Origin: Nitrospira tepida | Lineage (GTDB): Bacteria; Nitrospirota; Nitrospiria; Nitrospirales; Nitrospiraceae | Assembly: GCF_947241125.1 (NCBI RefSeq) | Contig: NZ_OX365700.1 | Coordinates: forward strand, 2,512,001-2,576,000 | DNA length: 64,000 bases | Direction of reading: 5' to 3' | Part shown: positions 4,157 through 63,552 of the stretch, one piece after another | How the letters are laid out: the number at the start of each line of letters is the position of its first letter | Numbering within the stretch: the first letter of the stretch is position 1 | The notes under the pieces: generated by a model | Database searches by the model: none | The model's input: the letters and a program-made list of their open reading frames with translations, nothing else | What the model was told of the DNA's origin: nothing | Translations under genes and position numbers: made by a program

Positions 4157-4540
4157 CTAGAACTCGTCGATCGAGACCGGATGCAACAGATCCCGCACCG
4201 AGACCATCCCGACAATTTTTCCGCTTTGGGTCACCGCCAGGTGGCGGGTCTGATTCTGCTGCATCAAATCCGCCGCCTCGGTGATCGGGCGCCGTTCGTC
4301 GATTCCGATGATCGGGCTGCTCATGATGTCCTCCACCGCAATGGCGGCCAGAGGTCGTTCTTCCACAATCGCCTTCCTGATGATATCCGGCTCGGTCACG
4401 ATCCCGATCAATTGGTCCCGAGATCGTACCAGGACGCTGCCGATGCGCCGGTGGCGCATGACCTTCGCCGCCTCGATCACCGATGTCCCCCGATCGACCG
4501 TCACCGGCTCCGCCGTCATGAGTTGCCCGACTCTGACCAT
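4157..4540 (-). CDS. Tandem CBS-domain protein
   Basis: 127-residue stand-alone CBS pair, a module that usually binds adenine nucleotides and regulates a partner. Each repeat shows the expected pattern: residues about 8-58 (MTAEPVTVDRGTSVIEAA ... IGSVLVRSRDQLIGIVTE) and about 71-122 (DIMSSPIIGIDERRPITEAA ... HLAVTQSGKIVGMVSVRDLL). The whole protein is filled by the two domains, so it has no effector domain of its own. Its start is preceded by AAGGAGGAATCAG. It is the last of three minus-strand genes with the small membrane protein and the Pal-like lipoprotein, although the gaps leave co-transcription uncertain. Confidence 0.92.
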   Translation of the reverse strand: MVRVGQLMTAEPVTVDRGTSVIEAAKVMRHRRIGSVLVRSRDQLIGIVTEPDIIRKAIVEERPLAAIAVEDIMSSPIIGIDERRPITEAADLMQQNQTRHLAVTQSGKIVGMVSVRDLLHPVSIDEF

Positions 4541-5643: not shown

Positions 5644-5731
5644 TAACAAGCTTGAGCCACAGGCTCTTCATAACTTCTCAGGAATCTACCGCCAGGAGGG
5701 GACACCTTTAGTTATTTCATCGTACTATTTT

Positions 5732-5813
5732 ATACCTACCTTCGGTTTAACCGGCTGCCTTCAGGTTGTTCTCGGTAGCCGGAGACAACTCCTCAAGGGA
5801 TTCGTGGCACTTA
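5732..5813. repeat. Degenerate direct repeat, copy 2
   Basis: Second copy of the element at 5549-5643. It carries ATACCTACCTTCGGTTTAAC (start of the match) and later GCCGGAGACAACTCC. The core palindrome is CGGTTTAACCG. It lies in the space between the Pal-like gene and the end of the DUF255 fusion gene. Apart from these two repeats I see nothing else in 5540-5851. Confidence 0.6.
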
Positions 5814-54255: not shown

Positions 54256-55575
54256 ATGAGGCGACCCGTGCCACGAAGAGTGGCGATTACAGCCACGCTC
54301 ACCACGATGCTGATGGCTTCGGCTCAGGCGATGGCCGGCGGTCTCTCGCTCTATGAAATCGGCACAGCCGATGTCGGACTGGCTGGTGCGGGCTGGGCAG
54401 CCCGTGCGCAGGATCCAGCCACGCTCCTCAAGAATCCGGCCGGCATGAGTTTGCTCGAGGGCAACCAGTTCCAGGCAGGCGCTCAACTGCTCTATGGGAG
54501 CATTGGGTTCAGCCCAAGTGGCGGAACGACGGTGGATGGAAACGACGGTGGAAACCCGCTTGGTGTCTTACCCGGCGCCAGTCTGTTCTATGTCCACGGT
54601 TTGGGTCGGGATATCAAACTGGGTATCGGCCTGTTTTCCAATTTCGGGCTCGGCTTGAATTACAACAGCGGGTGGGTCGGCCGGTATCACGGGCTGGAGA
54701 GCACGTTGATCGGTGTGAGCGTCATGCCGGGTCTCAGCTATCGCATCACCGACCAACTCTCCATCGGGGCTGCCGCCAACGTCATGGTCGGCTACCTCAA
54801 CTACAGCGCCGCCGTCAACAACCGGCTCTTCCTTGATGTGCCGGACGGGCAAATGCAGGTGAAGGATACGACCGCAGGAGCCGGCGGAAATGTTGGAGTA
54901 TTGTTCGAACCCAAGAAAGGGATGCGATTTGGCGTCACCTACTATTCACAAGTGAAGCTGAATTTTTCCGATGTCCCCGAGTTCACCGGTCTGTCAGGCC
55001 CGATCGGAACCGCTTTACAAAACCGGGGCCTGCTGGGTAATCAACTCGATTTGGGGGTGAGAGTCCCTCAGCAAGTAATGCTGAGCGCCTACCATGAGTT
55101 CACCGATCGGTGGGCCTTGATGCTGGACTTTGGATGGCAAGACTGGAGCCAGTTCGGAAAAGTGGATATCGGGGTGGCCGGAGACACGCTGACTCCGAGC
55201 GGGACCATCAAGGTGAACTATCAAGACACCTACCATGTCGCTCTGGGAAGCCGCTATCGCCTGAATGAAGCCTGGCTGATCAATACCGGCTTCGCCTGGG
55301 ACAGTTCAATGCTGAAGGACCAGGACCGCACGGTCACCCTCCCGATCGGCCAGGTTTTCCGGTTCGGGCTTGGCGCCGAATGGCAAGCCAGCCCCACGCT
55401 CAACGTGGCCTTTAGTTACGAATTGGCCTACAGCGGCACTATGTCCGTCAACCAGGATCGCGGACCGCTGGGCGGCAGCGTCGTCGGACAGTTTCCCGGC
55501 GCCTACATCAATTTCTTCCAGGTGAGTTTCATCTGGGGCAGCGGCGAACGCAACCCGTCGAACCGGAGCGGTTAA
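54256..55575 (+). CDS. FadL/OmpP1-like outer-membrane transporter
   Basis: 439 residues with a signal peptide, then the family opening GGLSLYEIGTADVGLAGAG followed by ARAQDPATLLKNPAGMSLLE (the NPAGM motif that marks the plug). A barrel of long strands follows (YNSGWVGRYHGLESTLIGVS; TYYSQVKLNF; VPQQVMLSAYHEFTDRWALM), ending in NFFQVSFIWGSGERNPSNRSG, without a terminal Phe. FadL relatives import long-chain fatty acids or other hydrophobic molecules. Third gene after composite promoter 4. The relic at 55614 starts about 40 bases after its stop. Confidence 0.85.
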   Translation: MRRPVPRRVAITATLTTMLMASAQAMAGGLSLYEIGTADVGLAGAGWAARAQDPATLLKNPAGMSLLEGNQFQAGAQLLYGSIGFSPSGGTTVDGNDGGNPLGVLPGASLFYVHGLGRDIKLGIGLFSNFGLGLNYNSGWVGRYHGLESTLIGVSVMPGLSYRITDQLSIGAAANVMVGYLNYSAAVNNRLFLDVPDGQMQVKDTTAGAGGNVGVLFEPKKGMRFGVTYYSQVKLNFSDVPEFTGLSGPIGTALQNRGLLGNQLDLGVRVPQQVMLSAYHEFTDRWALMLDFGWQDWSQFGKVDIGVAGDTLTPSGTIKVNYQDTYHVALGSRYRLNEAWLINTGFAWDSSMLKDQDRTVTLPIGQVFRFGLGAEWQASPTLNVAFSYELAYSGTMSVNQDRGPLGGSVVGQFPGAYINFFQVSFIWGSGERNPSNRSG

Positions 55576-55613
55576 GGCCTCGTCACCTTAATGGGTACCG
55601 GAGGAGCGACCAC

Positions 55614-55836
55614 ATGGGGAGAGACAAGAGACGCGGGGCCTTCGGCCTCGCGTTGCTGGGCGCTTGCGGCAGTCATGACACTGACATATCCGGGCGAGAC
55701 GGGATCTCTCGACCGGACCCAGATACTGATTCCGGAGCCCGAACTCCCGACTATCACCACATTGGACGCGCGGGAGACGAAAGTGTCGCCGCGATTCGAA
55801 GCTAAAGCACTCCCCCTGGCGTTGGATGGCCGTTGA
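55614..55836 (+). pseudogene. Decayed N-terminal fragment of an arylsulfatase
   Basis: ATG 55614 follows GGAGGAGCGACCAC and opens a signal-peptide-like MGRDKRRGAFGLALLGACG. The sequence then continues in another frame to DRTQILIPEPELP and LDARETKVSPRFEAKA (55708-55806), which mirrors DRTVLPIPEPKPKP and LDARKVKAPPRFEVKA near residues 32-64 of the intact sulfatase at 59928. It stops at 55836, before the catalytic core, so the remaining roughly 740 residues are missing. A frameshift plus truncation indicates a dead copy of the same gene family. 55837-55915 shows nothing else I can support. Confidence 0.72.
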
Positions 55837-55915
55837 TGGCCAGGCGGTCGAGAAGATTGGGCTATGTTCAGCACAAAGTGCCGGACCTGTTAGCCCGGCG
55901 CTCTGACGCGAGTTC

Positions 55916-56770
55916 ATGGATGGCACCGTCATGAGACGCTGGCTCGCCGAACCATTGCTGCACTTTCTGGTCTTGGGCGGACTGTTGTTCGGTGCCCACG
56001 GCTGGATCAATCGTGGAGGCGGCGACGAACCGCGCGTCCTGCGCCTGACTACGGCGGAGGTGAACTGGCTCACGGAGACCTGGACGCGGCAATGGCAGCG
56101 ATCGCCCACCAAAGAGGAACTCCAAGGCCTCGTCGCGGACTATGTGAAGGAAGAACTCCTTGCCCGTGAGGCGAAAGCCATGGGATTGGACGAGAACGAT
56201 ACGATCGTCCGCCGCCGGCTGGCGCAGAAGATGGAATTTCTCGTGCAGGATACGGCCCGGCTTGCCGAGCCAGCAGAAGCCGAATTGAGGCGGCTTTATG
56301 AGTCCGAATCAGCCCGCTACCGGACACCAGCGCGTACCTCATTTTCCCAGGTCTATTTCAAAACGGAGCCCGCTGCGAGAAAAGGGCTTGCGGACCTCAT
56401 GCAAGCTCATGTTGAGCAATTGGGCGATAGCTCGCTGCTGGAGCGCGACTATCCCGGCTTGGATGAGCAGGTCGTCACGAGACTGTTCGGAGAGAAGTTT
56501 GCCGGAAACGTATTCGCTCTGGAACCAGGCCGATGGCATGGCCCCATTCAGTCGGGGTACGGATTTCATCTCGTGAACGTCAGCGACCGGGAGGCCCCTC
56601 GATTGCGGCCCTTTGATGAGGTGCGGGCTCAGGTGCTGGAGGATTGGCATCGCGTGCAACAAGCCAAGGCGAACGAACAATTTGTTGCCGGATTGTTGAA
56701 AAAATATGAGGTGGTCGTCGATGAAACGGTCAGGCCATTGATTGGACCATTGGCAAAGCTTGCGCAATGA
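55916..56770 (+). CDS. Membrane-anchored parvulin-type peptidyl-prolyl isomerase
   Basis: 284 residues. An N-terminal hydrophobic anchor (LLHFLVLGGLLFGAHGWI), a SurA/PrsA-like helical part (about 45-130: EELQGLVADYVKEELLAREA), and a rotamase domain (about 140-240: RTPARTSFSQVYFKTEPAAR, ... RLFGEKFAGNVFALEPGRWH and GYGFHLVNVSDREAPRLRPF). It likely faces the periplasm and helps fold a secreted partner, possibly the DUF3604 protein or sulfatase beside it. ATG 55916 (or 55931). Its stop overlaps the HupE start (ATGA), so the two are coupled. Confidence 0.86.
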   Translation: MDGTVMRRWLAEPLLHFLVLGGLLFGAHGWINRGGGDEPRVLRLTTAEVNWLTETWTRQWQRSPTKEELQGLVADYVKEELLAREAKAMGLDENDTIVRRRLAQKMEFLVQDTARLAEPAEAELRRLYESESARYRTPARTSFSQVYFKTEPAARKGLADLMQAHVEQLGDSSLLERDYPGLDEQVVTRLFGEKFAGNVFALEPGRWHGPIQSGYGFHLVNVSDREAPRLRPFDEVRAQVLEDWHRVQQAKANEQFVAGLLKKYEVVVDETVRPLIGPLAKLAQ

Positions 56771-57753
56771 GGTGCGCCATTGTCATTGCATGGCTCGCTG
56801 CGTTACTTCTCTCCGTTCCAGCGTCTGCCCATGAGATGCGCCCGGCCTATCTCGAACTGCACGAAGAAAAGACCGGCGAGTTTCATGTCCTGTGGAAGAC
56901 ACCGATGCGCGGAGCGATGAGACTGTCGCTCTCGCCGGAACTGTCAGGGGCCACGGAGAGGCTCACGCCTGTGACCGCCCGCGAACACGGAGGCGCAGCG
57001 ATCCAGACATGGCGACTCCGGGCGGTTGAGCCTTTACGCGGCCAGTCGATCCGGATCGGCGGACTGGAACGCACGATGACCGATGCGCTGGTGCGCATAG
57101 AGTTCCTGGACGGCACGACCTGGACGCAGCGGCTGACGCCGGCCCACCCTGCGGCGGCCATACCGACGCTGCAATCCGGCCTCAGGGTCGCGGGCGTCTA
57201 TCTTACGCTGGGAATCGAGCACATTTTACTCGGAATCGATCATCTCCTCTTCGTCCTCGCGCTTCTGATCATCACGGAGGGAGCATGGCGTCTGGTGAAG
57301 ACCATCACTGCGTTTACGATCGCACACAGCATCACGCTCGCGTTGGTCACGCTTGGATTCGTGCATGTGCCACAGGCGCCCGTGGAGGCGGTCATTGCGC
57401 TCTCCATTGTATTCGTGGCGGCGGAGATCGTTCACGCGCGCGGCGGCCGGGAAGGGCTCACGGCCCGCGCGCCGTGGATCGTGGCGCTCGTGTTCGGGCT
57501 GCTGCACGGTTTCGGATTCGCGGGTGCCTTGAGTGAGGTGGGTCTGCCGCAGGGACAGATTCCGGCCGCCTTGCTCTGTTTCAATGTCGGCGTCGAATCT
57601 GGGCAATTGCTCTTTATCGGCGCCGTACTGAGCCTGGCGAACATCACCCGACCTGTCTGCGGTCCGCTTCCGCCCTGGGCGAGCCTTGTTCCGCCGTACG
57701 CCATCGGCAGTGTCGCAGTGTTCTGGGCGCTTCAGCGTGTTTCAGCGTTCTGA
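56767..57753 (+). CDS. HupE/UreJ_2-family membrane protein
   Basis: 328 residues. Signal sequence, then a periplasmic domain (about 22-135: HEMRPAYLELHEEKTGEFHV) and six to seven spans with His-rich motifs: GIEHILLGIDHLLFVLALL, ITAFTIAHSITLALVTLG, AEIVHARGG, LLHGFGFAGAL. The His/Asp motifs suggest metal transport or binding; the classic HupE and UreJ are nickel permeases, but the metal for this subfamily is not known to me. Translationally coupled to the PPIase gene. DUF3604 follows ten bases later. Confidence 0.88.
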   Translation: MRCAIVIAWLAALLLSVPASAHEMRPAYLELHEEKTGEFHVLWKTPMRGAMRLSLSPELSGATERLTPVTAREHGGAAIQTWRLRAVEPLRGQSIRIGGLERTMTDALVRIEFLDGTTWTQRLTPAHPAAAIPTLQSGLRVAGVYLTLGIEHILLGIDHLLFVLALLIITEGAWRLVKTITAFTIAHSITLALVTLGFVHVPQAPVEAVIALSIVFVAAEIVHARGGREGLTARAPWIVALVFGLLHGFGFAGALSEVGLPQGQIPAALLCFNVGVESGQLLFIGAVLSLANITRPVCGPLPPWASLVPPYAIGSVAVFWALQRVSAF

Positions 57754-57763
57754 GGAGGACACC

Positions 57764-59707
57764 ATGAAGGCATGCGGACGTTCAACGCTCGCCGCACTGA
57801 TCGCCATTATCCTGGCGCCGTGGGCGTGGGCTTACCAGCAGAGCGACATCGGATCGGCCGACAAGGCCGCGCTGGAAAAGGTGCACCCTTCAAAGCCCGC
57901 GTACTCGCCGTATGCGGGCCGCAATTATCCGACGAGACCATTCTTCGGCGACACGCATCTACACACGTCGTTCTCCATGGACGCCGGCGTGTTCGGCGCC
58001 CGGCTTACCCCTCGCGATGCCTACCGCTTTGCCAAAGGAGAAGAGATTACTTCGAATACAGGTCAGCCGGTCAAGCTGTCACGGCCGCTGGATTTCCTCG
58101 TCGTTGCTGACCACTCCGATGGATTTGGATTTTTCCCGCAGTTGATGAGCGGGGATCCCGTGTTGTTGGCAACCCCGCAAGGGCGAAAGTGGTACGACCA
58201 AATCAAGTCCGGCCATGGCGCCGAGGCTGCGATCGATATCATCATGAGCTTCGGCAAGAACCACCTCCCCAAGGGCTTCCCGCTTCCCGGCACGCATGCC
58301 TATCGCTCCGCCTGGCAGGAGGTCATCAAGACTGCGGATGCCTACAACGATCCAGGCCGCTTTACCGCCTTTATCGGGTACGAGTGGACCTCCAACACGG
58401 GCGGGAACAATCTGCACCGGAACGTCATCTTCCGAGAAAACGGCGCAAAGGCCAGGCTTGTCGAGCCTTTCACCACACTACCGCCGCTCGGCAGCGACAA
58501 TCCTCAGGATCTGTGGAAATGGATGGCCGCCACGGAAGAAAAAACGGGCAGTGAAGTGCTCGCGATCGCGCATAACGGCAATCTCAGTAACGGTCTGATG
58601 TTTCCCATGGTGGAGGCGTTCGGCAAGAAGATAGACCGTCAGTACGCCGAGACGCGAGTGAAATGGGAGCGGCTCTACGAAATCACCCAGACGAAGGGGA
58701 CCGGCGAAGCACACCCGGCCCTTTCCCCCAACGATGAATTCGCCAACTTCGAGATCTGGGACAAGGGCAACCTCGACGGAAGCGTCGCAAAGACGAAGGA
58801 CATGCTGGAATACGAGTATGCGCGATCCGCGCTGAAGAACGGTCTCGTGCTGGAAGCGAAGCTGGACACGAACCCCTACAAGTTCGGGCTTATCGGCAGC
58901 AGCGATGCGCATACGGGCCTTGCCGCGTTAGAGGAGGAGAGCTTCTTCGGCAAGACTGCCCCGCAGGAGCCAAGCCCGGAGCGCATGACCAAGACGTTCT
59001 TTCAGCACCCGAAGACAGGCGTAAAAGTGATGGATTGGGAGGTCTCGGCCGCCGGCTACGCCGCCGTCTGGGCGACGGAGAACACGCGCGAGGCGATCTT
59101 TGACGCCATGCAGCGCCGTGAAACCTACGCCACCACAGGGCCGCGCATGCTCGTGCGGTTCTTTGGAGGCTGGGACTTCGAGCCGGACGATGCGCATAAC
59201 CGCCTCCCGGCAGCCATTGGTTACGGCAAAGGCGTGCCGATGGGCAGCGAATTGACCGATGCGCCGAAGGGGAAATCGCCCACCTTCCTCGTCGCGGCAT
59301 TGAAAGACCCCATCGGCGCGAATCTGGACCGTATCCAGATCATCAAAGGCTGGCTCGACGCCAAGGGAGCCCTGCACGAGAAGATCTATGACGTCGTCTG
59401 GGGCGATGCTGAGAAGCGTCGACATGGCAAGGACGGCAAGTTGTCGGCCGTCGGCAACACCGTGGATGTGGAACATGCCACCTGGACTAACACGATCGGC
59501 GATCCGGAATTGATTACGGTCTGGAAAGACCCGGACTTCGATGCCAGTCAACGCGCGTTCTACTACGCTCGGGTCATCGAGATCCCAACGCCGCGCTGGA
59601 CCGCCTACGACGCGAAACGTTTCGGCGTGAAGCCGCTTCCCGGCACCGCAATGGTGCTTCAGGAGAGGGCCTACACGAGCCCCATATGGTACACGCCGGG
59701 GAATTAG
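57764..59707 (+). CDS. DUF3604 exported protein
   Basis: 647 residues with a signal peptide (LAALIAIILAPWAWA). The sequence carries a metal-site pattern like that of PHP hydrolases: GDTHLHTSFSMDAG (HxH), VVADHSDGFGF (DH), AIAHNGNLSNG (His) and SSDAHTGLAALEEESFF (DxH). This suggests a metal-dependent hydrolase of a phosphate or similar ester, but no substrate is established. Ribosome site GAGGAGGACACC right after the HupE stop. Genomic partnership with HupE_UreJ_2 and parvulin is a pattern I recall from other bacteria. Confidence 0.88.
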   Translation: MKACGRSTLAALIAIILAPWAWAYQQSDIGSADKAALEKVHPSKPAYSPYAGRNYPTRPFFGDTHLHTSFSMDAGVFGARLTPRDAYRFAKGEEITSNTGQPVKLSRPLDFLVVADHSDGFGFFPQLMSGDPVLLATPQGRKWYDQIKSGHGAEAAIDIIMSFGKNHLPKGFPLPGTHAYRSAWQEVIKTADAYNDPGRFTAFIGYEWTSNTGGNNLHRNVIFRENGAKARLVEPFTTLPPLGSDNPQDLWKWMAATEEKTGSEVLAIAHNGNLSNGLMFPMVEAFGKKIDRQYAETRVKWERLYEITQTKGTGEAHPALSPNDEFANFEIWDKGNLDGSVAKTKDMLEYEYARSALKNGLVLEAKLDTNPYKFGLIGSSDAHTGLAALEEESFFGKTAPQEPSPERMTKTFFQHPKTGVKVMDWEVSAAGYAAVWATENTREAIFDAMQRRETYATTGPRMLVRFFGGWDFEPDDAHNRLPAAIGYGKGVPMGSELTDAPKGKSPTFLVAALKDPIGANLDRIQIIKGWLDAKGALHEKIYDVVWGDAEKRRHGKDGKLSAVGNTVDVEHATWTNTIGDPELITVWKDPDFDASQRAFYYARVIEIPTPRWTAYDAKRFGVKPLPGTAMVLQERAYTSPIWYTPGN

Positions 59708-59731
59708 GAAGAGACATGATACGGGATACGC

Positions 59732-59835
59732 GAGGACAATCTCATATTCGATGACCGTCGGCTTCCCTGCGTCGGCACCGTCACCCTGTTGGTGAACGAC
59801 AAAAAGTCCTCGAAGCGCGCATTGAACACACTCAG
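59732..59835 (+). pseudogene. Decayed C-terminal fragment of an arylsulfatase (frameshifted)
   Basis: GTVTLLVNDKK (59774-59806) matches GTGTILVNGQK of the intact sulfatase's C-terminal domain. The match continues as EARIEHTQ (59812-59835) in the +1 frame, against EGRIEHTQ; RIEHTQ is identical. One missing A in the A-run at 59801-59805 would explain the shift. The codons differ at most wobble positions, so the fragment is old. The preceding EDNLIFDD stretch may belong to it. It lies 92 bases before the intact gene's start. Confidence 0.75.
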
Positions 59836-59927
59836 GTGGCTGGAAAAGATCAAAGTGCCAGCGGGAGTTCGCGCACAAGAAAGCGCTGTCAGACGAATTC
59901 GGTTGTCCCGATTCAAGGAGACTCAAT

Positions 59928-62357
59928 ATGAGACCTCGTGGATTGTTCGCAGTCGTCACTGTAGCCCTAATGGGATATCTCGTCATCGACGTGCAGGCGC
60001 CGTTCGCTGCGGACAAGCTCGATCGTACGGTGTTGCCGATTCCGGAACCCAAACCGAAACCAATCACCGAACTCGATGCGCGCAAGGTGAAAGCTCCGCC
60101 GCGATTCGAGGTCAAGGCGCCGGCGGGAGCGCCGAACGTCCTCATCGTGCTGATCGACGATATGGGTTTCGGCATGTCCAGTGCCTTCGGCGGGCCCATC
60201 CATATGCCGACCGTCGAGCGTCTCGCCAATAACGGGCTGCGCTACAACCACTTCCACACCACCGCCCTCTGTTCGCCGACCAGGACCGCCCTGCTGAGCG
60301 GCCGCAACCACCACATGAACAATATGGGCGGGATCACGGAAATCGCGACCGCGTTTCCGGGCAACACGGGCCAGCGGCCAAATAATGTTGCGCCGCTCGC
60401 CGAGATGCTGCGGCTGAATGGCTACAGCACCGCCTTCTTCGGGAAGAACCACGAAACCGCGGCCTGGGAAGTCAGCCCCTCCGGTCCGACCGACCGCTGG
60501 CCGACCCGTTCGGGCTTCGACAAGTTCTACGGTTTCATCGGCGGGGAAACCAACCAGTGGTCGCCGCTGCTCTACGACGGGTTGACTCAGGTAGAGCTGC
60601 CGCACGATCCGAACTACCATTTCATGACCGACATGACCAACCAGGCGATCAAGTGGATGGGCTATCAGAAGTCGCTCACGCCGGATAAGCCGTTCTTTAT
60701 CTACTTCGCGCCGGGCGCGACCCATGCGCCGCACCACGTGCCCAAGGAATGGATTGCCAAGTACAAGGGCAGGTTCGACGGCGGCTGGGACCGATTCCGC
60801 GAAGAGACCCTGGCCCGCCAGATCAAGCTGGGCGTAGTGCCTCCGGGGACGACGCTCGCGCCCAAACCGGACGCGATCAAGGACTGGGGCCAGCTCACGG
60901 CGGACGAGAAGAAGCTCTTTACCCGCCAGATGGAGATCTTCGCCGGCTTCGGCGAATACACCGACGCCGAGATCGGTCGATTGATCCAGGCCGTCGAAGC
61001 GACGGGTCAAATGAACAACACGCTGATCTTCTACATCGTGGGCGACAACGGCACGAGCGCCGAGGGGGGCATGAACGGCCTGTTTAACGAGATGACATAC
61101 TTCAACGGCGTGCAGGAAACCGTCGAAAGCATTCTTCAGCATTATGACGAACTTGGCGGTCCGATGTCCTATGGCCACATGGCAGCCGGCTGGGCCGTGG
61201 CAGGCGATACACCGTTCACCTGGACCAAGCAAGTCGCGTCGAACTTCGGTGGCACCCGCAACGGATTGGTGATTCACTGGCCCAAGGGCATCAAGGCGAA
61301 GGGCGAGGTGCGAACGCAGTTCCATCATGTCATCGACGTGGCGCCGACGGTGTTGCAGGCCGCTGGCCTGCCGGAGCCGAAGGTAGTGAACGGCACCGTA
61401 CAAGCCTCGATCGAAGGCGTGAGCATGGCCTATACGTTCGACGGCGCCAAAGCCAAGAGCCGGCACAGAGTCCAGTACTTCGAAATCGGCGGCAACCGCG
61501 CAATCTACGCGGATGGCTGGTTTGCCGCTACCGTCCACTCGGTGCCCTGGGAGCCAAAGCCCCGCGCGACCCTCCTTGAAGACAAATGGGAACTCTACGA
61601 TACGCGCAATGATTTCAGCCTGTCCAACGATCTGGCAGCCAGGATTCCTAAAAAGCTTAAAGAGTTGCAAGGTCTTTTCCTGAAGGAAGCAGTTAAGTAC
61701 CACGTATTGCCCATTGATGATCGCCGGGTCGAACGCCTCAATCCTGCGATTGCCGGGAGGCCTGATTTGATGGGCAGTCGCACCTCGCTCACAGTCTATG
61801 AAGGCATGACCGGAATGTCGGAAAACGTGTTCATCAACACGAAGAACCGCTCCCACACGATCACAGCGGAGGTAGAAATTTCCGAGGGCGGCGCAAACGG
61901 CGTGATCCTGGCCCAGGCCGGCCGGTTTGGCGGTTGGAGCCTCTATCTTAAAGATGGCAAACCGGTCTACACGTACAATTTTCTCGGCCTGGAGCGGTTC
62001 AATATTGCGGCGGCCCAGCCGCTGACTCCGGGCAAGGCGACGATCCGGTATGAGTTCGCATCCGATGGTCCCGGGATGGGCAAGGGCGGCACGGGCACGA
62101 TCCTTGTCAACGGGCAGAAGGCCGCCGAAGGACGAATCGAGCATACGCAATGTTGTGGCTACTCAGCTGACGAAGGCGCCGATGTCGGAGTGGACGAGGG
62201 TACGCCGGTCACGGAGGACTACAAGGAACGAGACAATCAGTTCACCGGCAAGATTCACAGCATCACCATCGAGGTGAAGGAGACGAAGACAGCCGATACG
62301 AACGAAATGAAACAGGCCTTGCACGAGACGGCCCGGCGCAAGACGCTGTCCGACTGA
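59928..62357 (+). CDS. Arylsulfatase, formylglycine type
   Basis: 809 residues with a signal sequence (about 5-28). The sulfatase signature is C115-S-P-T-R119 in HTTALCSPTRTALLSGRN, so Cys115 should be turned into formylglycine. Metal ligands VLIDDMGFG (Asp77/78) and IVGDNGTSAEGG are present, and FFGKNHETA supplies the active-site Lys. A C-terminal beta domain of about 180 residues follows. Substrate unknown (sulfate or phosphonate esters). Start follows AAGGAGACTCAAT. It needs the FGE encoded next to it. Confidence 0.95.
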   Translation: MRPRGLFAVVTVALMGYLVIDVQAPFAADKLDRTVLPIPEPKPKPITELDARKVKAPPRFEVKAPAGAPNVLIVLIDDMGFGMSSAFGGPIHMPTVERLANNGLRYNHFHTTALCSPTRTALLSGRNHHMNNMGGITEIATAFPGNTGQRPNNVAPLAEMLRLNGYSTAFFGKNHETAAWEVSPSGPTDRWPTRSGFDKFYGFIGGETNQWSPLLYDGLTQVELPHDPNYHFMTDMTNQAIKWMGYQKSLTPDKPFFIYFAPGATHAPHHVPKEWIAKYKGRFDGGWDRFREETLARQIKLGVVPPGTTLAPKPDAIKDWGQLTADEKKLFTRQMEIFAGFGEYTDAEIGRLIQAVEATGQMNNTLIFYIVGDNGTSAEGGMNGLFNEMTYFNGVQETVESILQHYDELGGPMSYGHMAAGWAVAGDTPFTWTKQVASNFGGTRNGLVIHWPKGIKAKGEVRTQFHHVIDVAPTVLQAAGLPEPKVVNGTVQASIEGVSMAYTFDGAKAKSRHRVQYFEIGGNRAIYADGWFAATVHSVPWEPKPRATLLEDKWELYDTRNDFSLSNDLAARIPKKLKELQGLFLKEAVKYHVLPIDDRRVERLNPAIAGRPDLMGSRTSLTVYEGMTGMSENVFINTKNRSHTITAEVEISEGGANGVILAQAGRFGGWSLYLKDGKPVYTYNFLGLERFNIAAAQPLTPGKATIRYEFASDGPGMGKGGTGTILVNGQKAAEGRIEHTQCCGYSADEGADVGVDEGTPVTEDYKERDNQFTGKIHSITIEVKETKTADTNEMKQALHETARRKTLSD

Positions 62358-62400: not shown

Positions 62401-63552
62401 TTGATACGAGCGACACCGCGCCTCCGGTGGGTGATGGGAACCCTGGTCCTCGGCGGACTCGCCGTTGCCGGATGGTGGGGCTGGTCCAAAGGTACGTCCC
62501 GCTGGTCTCCGGTGCCCTCCCTGACCTGTGACATGGGCATTTCTGCGGCGAAAGCAAATCGCGGTGTCGAACCTCAAACCTCACAGCTCGTCAGCGAGTC
62601 CCCACGTACGATCCCGACAGCGTCGCAACAGACCCCTGAGGGCATGGTCTGGATTCCGGGCGGCGAGTTCTGGATGGGGGCGGATGACTTTCCCGATGCG
62701 CAGCCGTGGCATCGCGTCTATGTGGACGGTTTTTGGATGGATAAGACGGAAGTCACGAACGAGCAGTTTGCGAAGTTCGTCAAGGCAACGGATTACGTCA
62801 CGGTGGCCGAGCGCGCGCCGCGCGCGGAGGATTTCCCCGGCGCGCCGCCCGAGAATCTCGTTGCCGGTTCGGTGGTCTTCTCGCCGCCCGACCATCCGGT
62901 GAAGCTGAACGATCACTTCCAATGGTGGAGTTATGTGAACGGAGCGGACTGGCAGCACCCTGAAGGCCCGAAGAGTTCCATCAAAGGCCGCGAGCGATAT
63001 CCCGTTGTCCATATCGCCTACGAAGACGCGCTGGCCTATGCGAAATGGGCCGGGAAGCGTCTGCCGACCGAAGCTGAATTCGAGTTCGCCCAGCGAGGAA
63101 GGCTCGACCGCAAGCCCTACGCTTGGGGCGACGAGTTCAAGCCCGGCGGTCAGTTCATGGCCAATACCTTCCAGGGGCACTTCCCGGACAAAAACACAAA
63201 GGAAGACGGCTATGCGGCTGTCGCACCGGTGGCTTCCTTCCCGCCGAATGGTTACGGGCTTTATGACATGGCCGGAAACGTCTGGGAATGGACGAGTGAT
63301 TGGTATCGCCACGACTACTATCGGTTGTTGGTCGGTCAGGGACTCGTTACACGCAATCCGCAAGGACCGGTCGACAGCTTCGACCCCAGTGAACCAGGCG
63401 TGAAGAAGAAAGTGCATAAGGGCGGGTCGTTTTTGTGTACGGACCAGTATTGCGCGCGCTACATCGCCGGCGGGCGTGGGAAAGGCGAACCGGATACGGG
63501 TACAAACCATCTCGGATTCCGGCTGGTGCGACCTGGAGCTGATGCGCCATGA
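62401..63552 (+). CDS. Formylglycine-generating enzyme (sulfatase-modifying factor)
   Basis: 383 residues: N-terminal membrane anchor (VMGTLVLGGLAVAGWWGW), then an FGE-sulfatase domain from GMVWIPGGEFWMGADDFPDA to NHLGFRLVRPG. Features DKTEVTNEQFAKF, LPTEAEFEFAQRG, GNVWEWTSDWY. It has the copper-site cysteines, C346 and C351 in GGSFLCTDQYCARY (C-x4-C), which distinguish true FGEs from the many FGE-like domains lacking them. It therefore should activate Cys115 of the sulfatase before export or during it. TTG 62401 follows AAGGATTCTGACG. Confidence 0.92.
   Translation: MIRATPRLRWVMGTLVLGGLAVAGWWGWSKGTSRWSPVPSLTCDMGISAAKANRGVEPQTSQLVSESPRTIPTASQQTPEGMVWIPGGEFWMGADDFPDAQPWHRVYVDGFWMDKTEVTNEQFAKFVKATDYVTVAERAPRAEDFPGAPPENLVAGSVVFSPPDHPVKLNDHFQWWSYVNGADWQHPEGPKSSIKGRERYPVVHIAYEDALAYAKWAGKRLPTEAEFEFAQRGRLDRKPYAWGDEFKPGGQFMANTFQGHFPDKNTKEDGYAAVAPVASFPPNGYGLYDMAGNVWEWTSDWYRHDYYRLLVGQGLVTRNPQGPVDSFDPSEPGVKKKVHKGGSFLCTDQYCARYIAGGRGKGEPDTGTNHLGFRLVRPGADAP

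Follow-up and report, generated by a model that had tools for sequence, protein, structure and literature searches.

The locus considered here raises the question of how two scraps of sulfatase-like sequence came to flank three intact genes, the second scrap lying directly before a complete sulfatase gene. The locus belongs to the window, that is, the whole stretch of 64,000 nucleotides of Nitrospira tepida DNA that was analysed, corresponding to positions 2512001-2576000 of a single-contig genome of 4.73 Mb. The genes of the region are those for MscS-like, outer-membrane, LEA2, Ysc84, FadL, peptidyl-prolyl isomerase (PPIase), HupE, DUF3604 and sulfatase proteins and for a formylglycine-generating enzyme; the MscS-like label, and the DUF4239-like label used below for relatives, are putative and were assigned by eye from sequence. 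The features that matter for the question are the following:

54256..55575, + strand: FadL/TodX-family outer-membrane protein (PF03349, E 8.7e-65), left anchor of the scrap-flanked region
55614..55809, + strand: N-terminal sulfatase remnant with start codon, signal peptide and linker to residue 64, frameshifted between signal peptide and linker
55916..56770, + strand: PPIC-type peptidyl-prolyl isomerase (PF13145, E 7.2e-18), intact, first gene of the trio
56767..57753, + strand: HupE/UreJ-family membrane protein (PF13795, E 2.1e-47), intact, overlapping the PPIase gene by 4 bases
57764..59707, + strand: DUF3604 protein (PF12228, E 5e-247), intact
59726..59893, + strand: C-terminal sulfatase remnant, made of residues ~704/721-744 (59726/59774-59846) with one frameshift, an internal deletion, and the last ~11 residues (~59861-59893), no stop
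59928..62357, + strand: intact type I sulfatase (PF00884, E 1.7e-61), with the CSPTR active-site motif at residue 115
62401..63552, + strand: formylglycine-generating enzyme (sulfatase activator) gene (PF03781, E 1.9e-75)

The presence of sulfatase scraps on both sides of the PPIase-HupE-DUF3604 trio, claimed by an earlier sequence-only reading, was borne out by translated alignment against the intact gene. Read in the frame of position 55576, the N-terminal scrap matched residues 19-64 of the intact protein with a BLOSUM62 local score of 104 (maximum of 500 shuffles, 65), and a score of 115 was reached when frameshifts were allowed (shuffle maximum, 44). In a six-frame search of the window with a profile HMM built from 94 sulfatases, this scrap (E = 4.3e-4) was the sole match with E below 1 besides the intact gene. 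It was also recovered in a search of the whole genome, with an E of 2.7e-5, or 2.5e-7 when residues 1-71 alone served as the query; this search disclosed no other copy of the subfamily beyond the scrap and the gene at 59928, which is the genome's only intact member. Chance similarity was rejected for the N-terminal scrap by its single-frame, HMM and frameshift-aware scores. Its extent had been given as 55614-55836; the match itself stood well above shuffles, the limit had to be moved to 55809, and the scrap turned out to be frameshifted as well, its linker (55672-55809) lying in a different frame from the ATG at 55614 and the signal peptide. Similarity past 55809 was not significant (p about 0.9), and the idea that the scrap continues into catalytic-core sequence as far as the PPIase gene was discarded, the weak alignment that reached 55891 not exceeding shuffles.

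The C-terminal scrap required the frameshift to be recognized. In single frames its score of 51 stayed below the shuffle maximum (54), and it gave no match in the profile HMM of 94 sulfatases. With one frameshift the score against the intact gene was 70-71, as compared with maxima of 51 in 60 random stretches of the window and 45 in 300 shuffles. The first piece covers residues ~704/721-744 at 59726/59774-59846, and the second, REFAHKKALSD (~59861-59893), represents the extreme C-terminus, with a score of 39-48 that none of 300 shuffles reached. The eight residues AHKKALSD (~59870-59893 in the window) form a C-terminal motif of this sulfatase subfamily, seen also at L036 and L039. The two pieces are separated by a deletion of ~55 residues, and no stop codon remains. 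Consequently to this mapping, the boundaries 59732-59835 first proposed for a frameshifted scrap end too early, since the similarity reaches ~59893, 34 bases upstream of the intact sulfatase. That only the N-terminal scrap is real, the C-terminal one being a chance resemblance, is a very unlikely alternative: no single reading frame of the C-terminal region beats shuffles, as chance would have it, but the frameshift-aware score lies above both control maxima and an independent C-terminal piece follows in the right order.

Between them, the scraps lack residues 65 to ~703, that is, ~640 of the 809 codons, those of the middle, with the CSPTR site at 115 included. No remnants of the sulfatase core were found beyond chance at the inner edges of the scraps. 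Judged by significant similarity, order and orientation, the scraps are pseudogene remnants of type I (formylglycine-dependent) sulfatases of a PF00884 subfamily. Both are disabled by frameshifts, truncation and absence of the catalytic core. A GGAGGAG run resembling a ribosome site stands immediately 5' of the ATG at 55614, which would suit a functional small secreted protein or leader rather than debris. This reading is nevertheless scarcely credible: signal peptide and linker do not share a frame, positions at which the closest intact copies are conserved have changed (TVLPI to TQILI, PP to SP), and the scrap is the only orphan N-terminal match among 175 genomes of the family at the sensitivity of that search.

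Codon comparisons bear on the divergence of the scraps. Between the N-terminal scrap and the intact gene, 18/34 third positions are identical, against 24/34 first and 26/34 second positions, a weak contrast drawn from 34 codons. The third-position differences indicate that the two sequences diverged while both were functional. The scrap is identical at 19-22/34 positions to each of the seven closest intact Nitrospiraceae sulfatases, and these same seven share 24-30/34 with the window's intact gene, 34 positions being short for a rate comparison that could reveal relaxed constraint. A recent tandem duplication of the intact sulfatase was rejected as the source of the scrap, its 21/34 identities to the window's copy falling within the range found for other genomes' closest copies. 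The wobble divergence had been taken as a sign of an old event. It does argue against a recent duplicate of the neighbour, but the pattern reflects the split of the paralogues and not the death of one of them, and therefore cannot date the loss. In the sulfatase tree, the window's intact gene could be placed in either of two Nitrospiraceae subclades, with support of 67/35 for one and a p-AU of 0.43 for the other.

The position of the scraps becomes clearer from its Nitrospiraceae relatives, the nearest sulfatase loci being those of Nitrospira sp. CR1.3 (G049; L131/L003) and palsa_1310. In CR1.3, an intact sulfatase gene starts ~40 bases past the FadL stop, and the DNA that follows FadL in the window aligns with that gene, beginning ahead of the start codon and continuing through the linker (local score 71, shuffle maximum 42). 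The adjacency of FadL and sulfatase in CR1.3, together with the aligned start region, places the N-terminal scrap at the orthologous position of a FadL-linked sulfatase. FadL and the sulfatase of G046 and G051 are separated by a DUF4239-like gene, and in G107, G108 and G073 the same gene is followed by PPIase, HupE and DUF3604 in the order of the window. This comparison of neighbours across relatives shows the trio to be a block that is either present or absent between these genes. At the level of order or class, the trio's order is kept in G396, G322, G441, G362 and G271, in which this sulfatase does not come directly after it. The sequence-only reading would have lost ground had relatives never carried more than one sulfatase at this place; in fact two or more lie close together in G073, G051 and G119, and G107 keeps, after its intact copy, the start of a second sulfatase that matches the start of the intact gene of G073. 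An intact succession of FadL, sulfatase, trio and sulfatase was seen in none of the relatives, nor was a tandem of two intact sulfatases after FadL.

In some relatives, DUF3604 is present in two or three copies near each other, at L165 (G362), L166 (G445) and L136 (G029), with varying order of PPIase and HupE. C-terminal scraps of DUF3604 and of an MscS-like gene lie near sulfatase/DUF3604 genes at L142 (G111) and L144 (G064), which suggests that other genes of the sulfatase neighbourhood leave remnants too. The literature on DUF3604 and on Nitrospira sulfatases offered nothing of use.

A precedent for the replacement of a sulfatase is provided by G107 and G073, whose DNA is 93.7% identical over the block that begins with Ysc84 and ends at the DUF3604 stop. 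In G107 an intact sulfatase adjoins DUF3604, whereas the corresponding place in G073 is taken by a ~3 kb cassette that encodes an outer-membrane-type protein and another sulfatase; beyond it stand the final ~70 codons of the G107 sulfatase, frameshifted, and from there homology resumes at 88% identity. The parallel cassette replacement beside DUF3604 is thus observed directly in a relative; it is an event of the same kind, with the same gene as neighbour, at a young stage. The frameshifts, deletions and low C-scrap score suggest that the loss in the window would be older than that in G073.

Insertion of a mobile element into a sulfatase gene was considered and rejected. No repeats were found within either flank of the trio, and the search for a target-site duplication or repeat between the flanks gave a longest direct match of 7 bases and a longest inverted one of 6, as in shuffles. 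The insert contains only PPIase, HupE and DUF3604, with no transposase, integrase or recombinase among them. The idea of a trio of foreign base composition was likewise dropped, its GC being similar to that of the surrounding DNA.

The explanation favoured here, to which a probability of roughly 85% is given, is that the scraps are what is left, without function, of one or two additional sulfatases of the same subfamily, and that at least one further such gene formerly stood where the trio is now. The ancestral locus would have had a sulfatase directly after FadL, as CR1.3 still has, beside at least one more sulfatase. The PPIase-HupE-DUF3604 block would then have taken over the place of the first sulfatase, most of which would have been lost in the same step or in later ones, leaving its 5' end beside FadL and a 3' end directly before the surviving sulfatase; afterwards the remnants would have drifted through frameshifts and deletions. 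We infer replacement by the trio, and not separate deletions, as the cause of the loss. The two origins first put forward, insertion of the trio into an old sulfatase gene that lost its middle or partial deletion of several copies, may each apply, and together they cover this explanation.

Two more specific versions can be told apart within the favoured explanation, and their probabilities overlap with it. According to the first, which comes close to even odds, the trio took the place of the central part of one sulfatase gene in a tandem of FadL, sulfatase 1 and sulfatase 2, so that both scraps would stem from one gene, as we tentatively infer. The observed order and orientation, N-terminal scrap on the left and C-terminal scrap on the right, are those predicted, the left edge has an intact, FadL-linked sulfatase as its orthologue, and neighbouring sulfatases and cassette replacements are known in relatives. 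On the other hand, with ~640 of 809 codons missing a simple insertion is insufficient, and the FadL-linked sulfatases of G049 (total 80) and G046 (total 71) show no affinity to the C-terminal scrap, for which the window's own intact gene reaches 98 and the best match, a deltaproteobacterial sulfatase, 115 (Nitrospiraceae copies range from 71 to 98). In view of this best match outside the Nitrospiraceae, and of a length too short for assignment, the C-terminal scrap may derive from a different gene than the N-terminal one. This is the core of the second version, a possible one though short of an even chance, in which the N-terminal scrap is what remains of a FadL-linked sulfatase like that of CR1.3 and the C-terminal scrap of a sulfatase following the trio like that of G107, each lost separately. 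Both adjacencies are found in relatives, the DUF3604-linked sulfatase of G073 has decayed in just this manner, and the best match of the C-terminal scrap lies outside the Nitrospiraceae set; however, this version needs the locus to have carried three sulfatases and to have lost two of them, and the assignment is based on ~40 residues.

Sulfatase tails detached from their genes are not limited to the window. Orphan C-terminal tails were detected in G005, G051, G073 (two), G107, G109 and perhaps G139, with sites at L099 (~1508-1706), L140 (13203-13400), L130 (2473-2663), L129 (5587-5700), G107:C2:670802-671017, G109:C12:217342-217509 and perhaps G139:C8:289920-290030. Such tails are frequent in the family and orphan N-termini rare; a conserved tail may be easier to detect. 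At L127 of G107, three 3' tails of the formylglycine-generating enzyme gene lie within ~3 kb (2840-2951, 4276-4387, 5681-5791), one belonging to an intact gene and two orphaned. An ORF of 426 residues encoding an ATPase-like protein (L130:933-2213) is found near a sulfatase tail of G073, in an extra stretch absent from the near-identical G107 locus. One could conceive of the orphan tails of sulfatases and of their activating enzyme as scars, incoming cassettes pairing with conserved 3' gene ends and displacing the resident gene with its tail left behind, an idea that we regard as improbable.

In summary, the scraps are ordinary gene debris, the product of decay in a variable region where sulfatases are repeatedly gained, replaced and lost, and they point to no new mechanism or function. 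The sulfatase gene set of this Nitrospiraceae locus is subject to turnover, with lost copies marked by their remnants, which makes sulfatase content an unstable trait here. Frameshifted scraps, even where their shortness keeps them out of annotations, can record the history of a locus.

Three known loci place that of the window in perspective. CR1.3 (L003, L131) shares with it the FadL gene, a similar spacing to the sulfatase start and detectable DNA similarity, but its sulfatase is intact and the PPIase-HupE-DUF3604 block is absent. In G107 (L127; Nitrospiraceae) the trio has the gene order of the window, and a sulfatase of the same subfamily comes next; unlike the window, G107 has no scrap between DUF3604 and the sulfatase, and Ysc84 and DUF4239-like genes, not a sulfatase remnant, lie upstream. 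G073 (L129, L130) resembles the window in two respects: past the same DUF3604 gene it keeps a frameshifted remnant of a sulfatase C-terminus, and a second sulfatase tail immediately precedes an intact sulfatase (L129). By contrast, its cassette, composed of an outer-membrane-type protein and another sulfatase, stands between DUF3604 and the remnant, and its decay is much younger.
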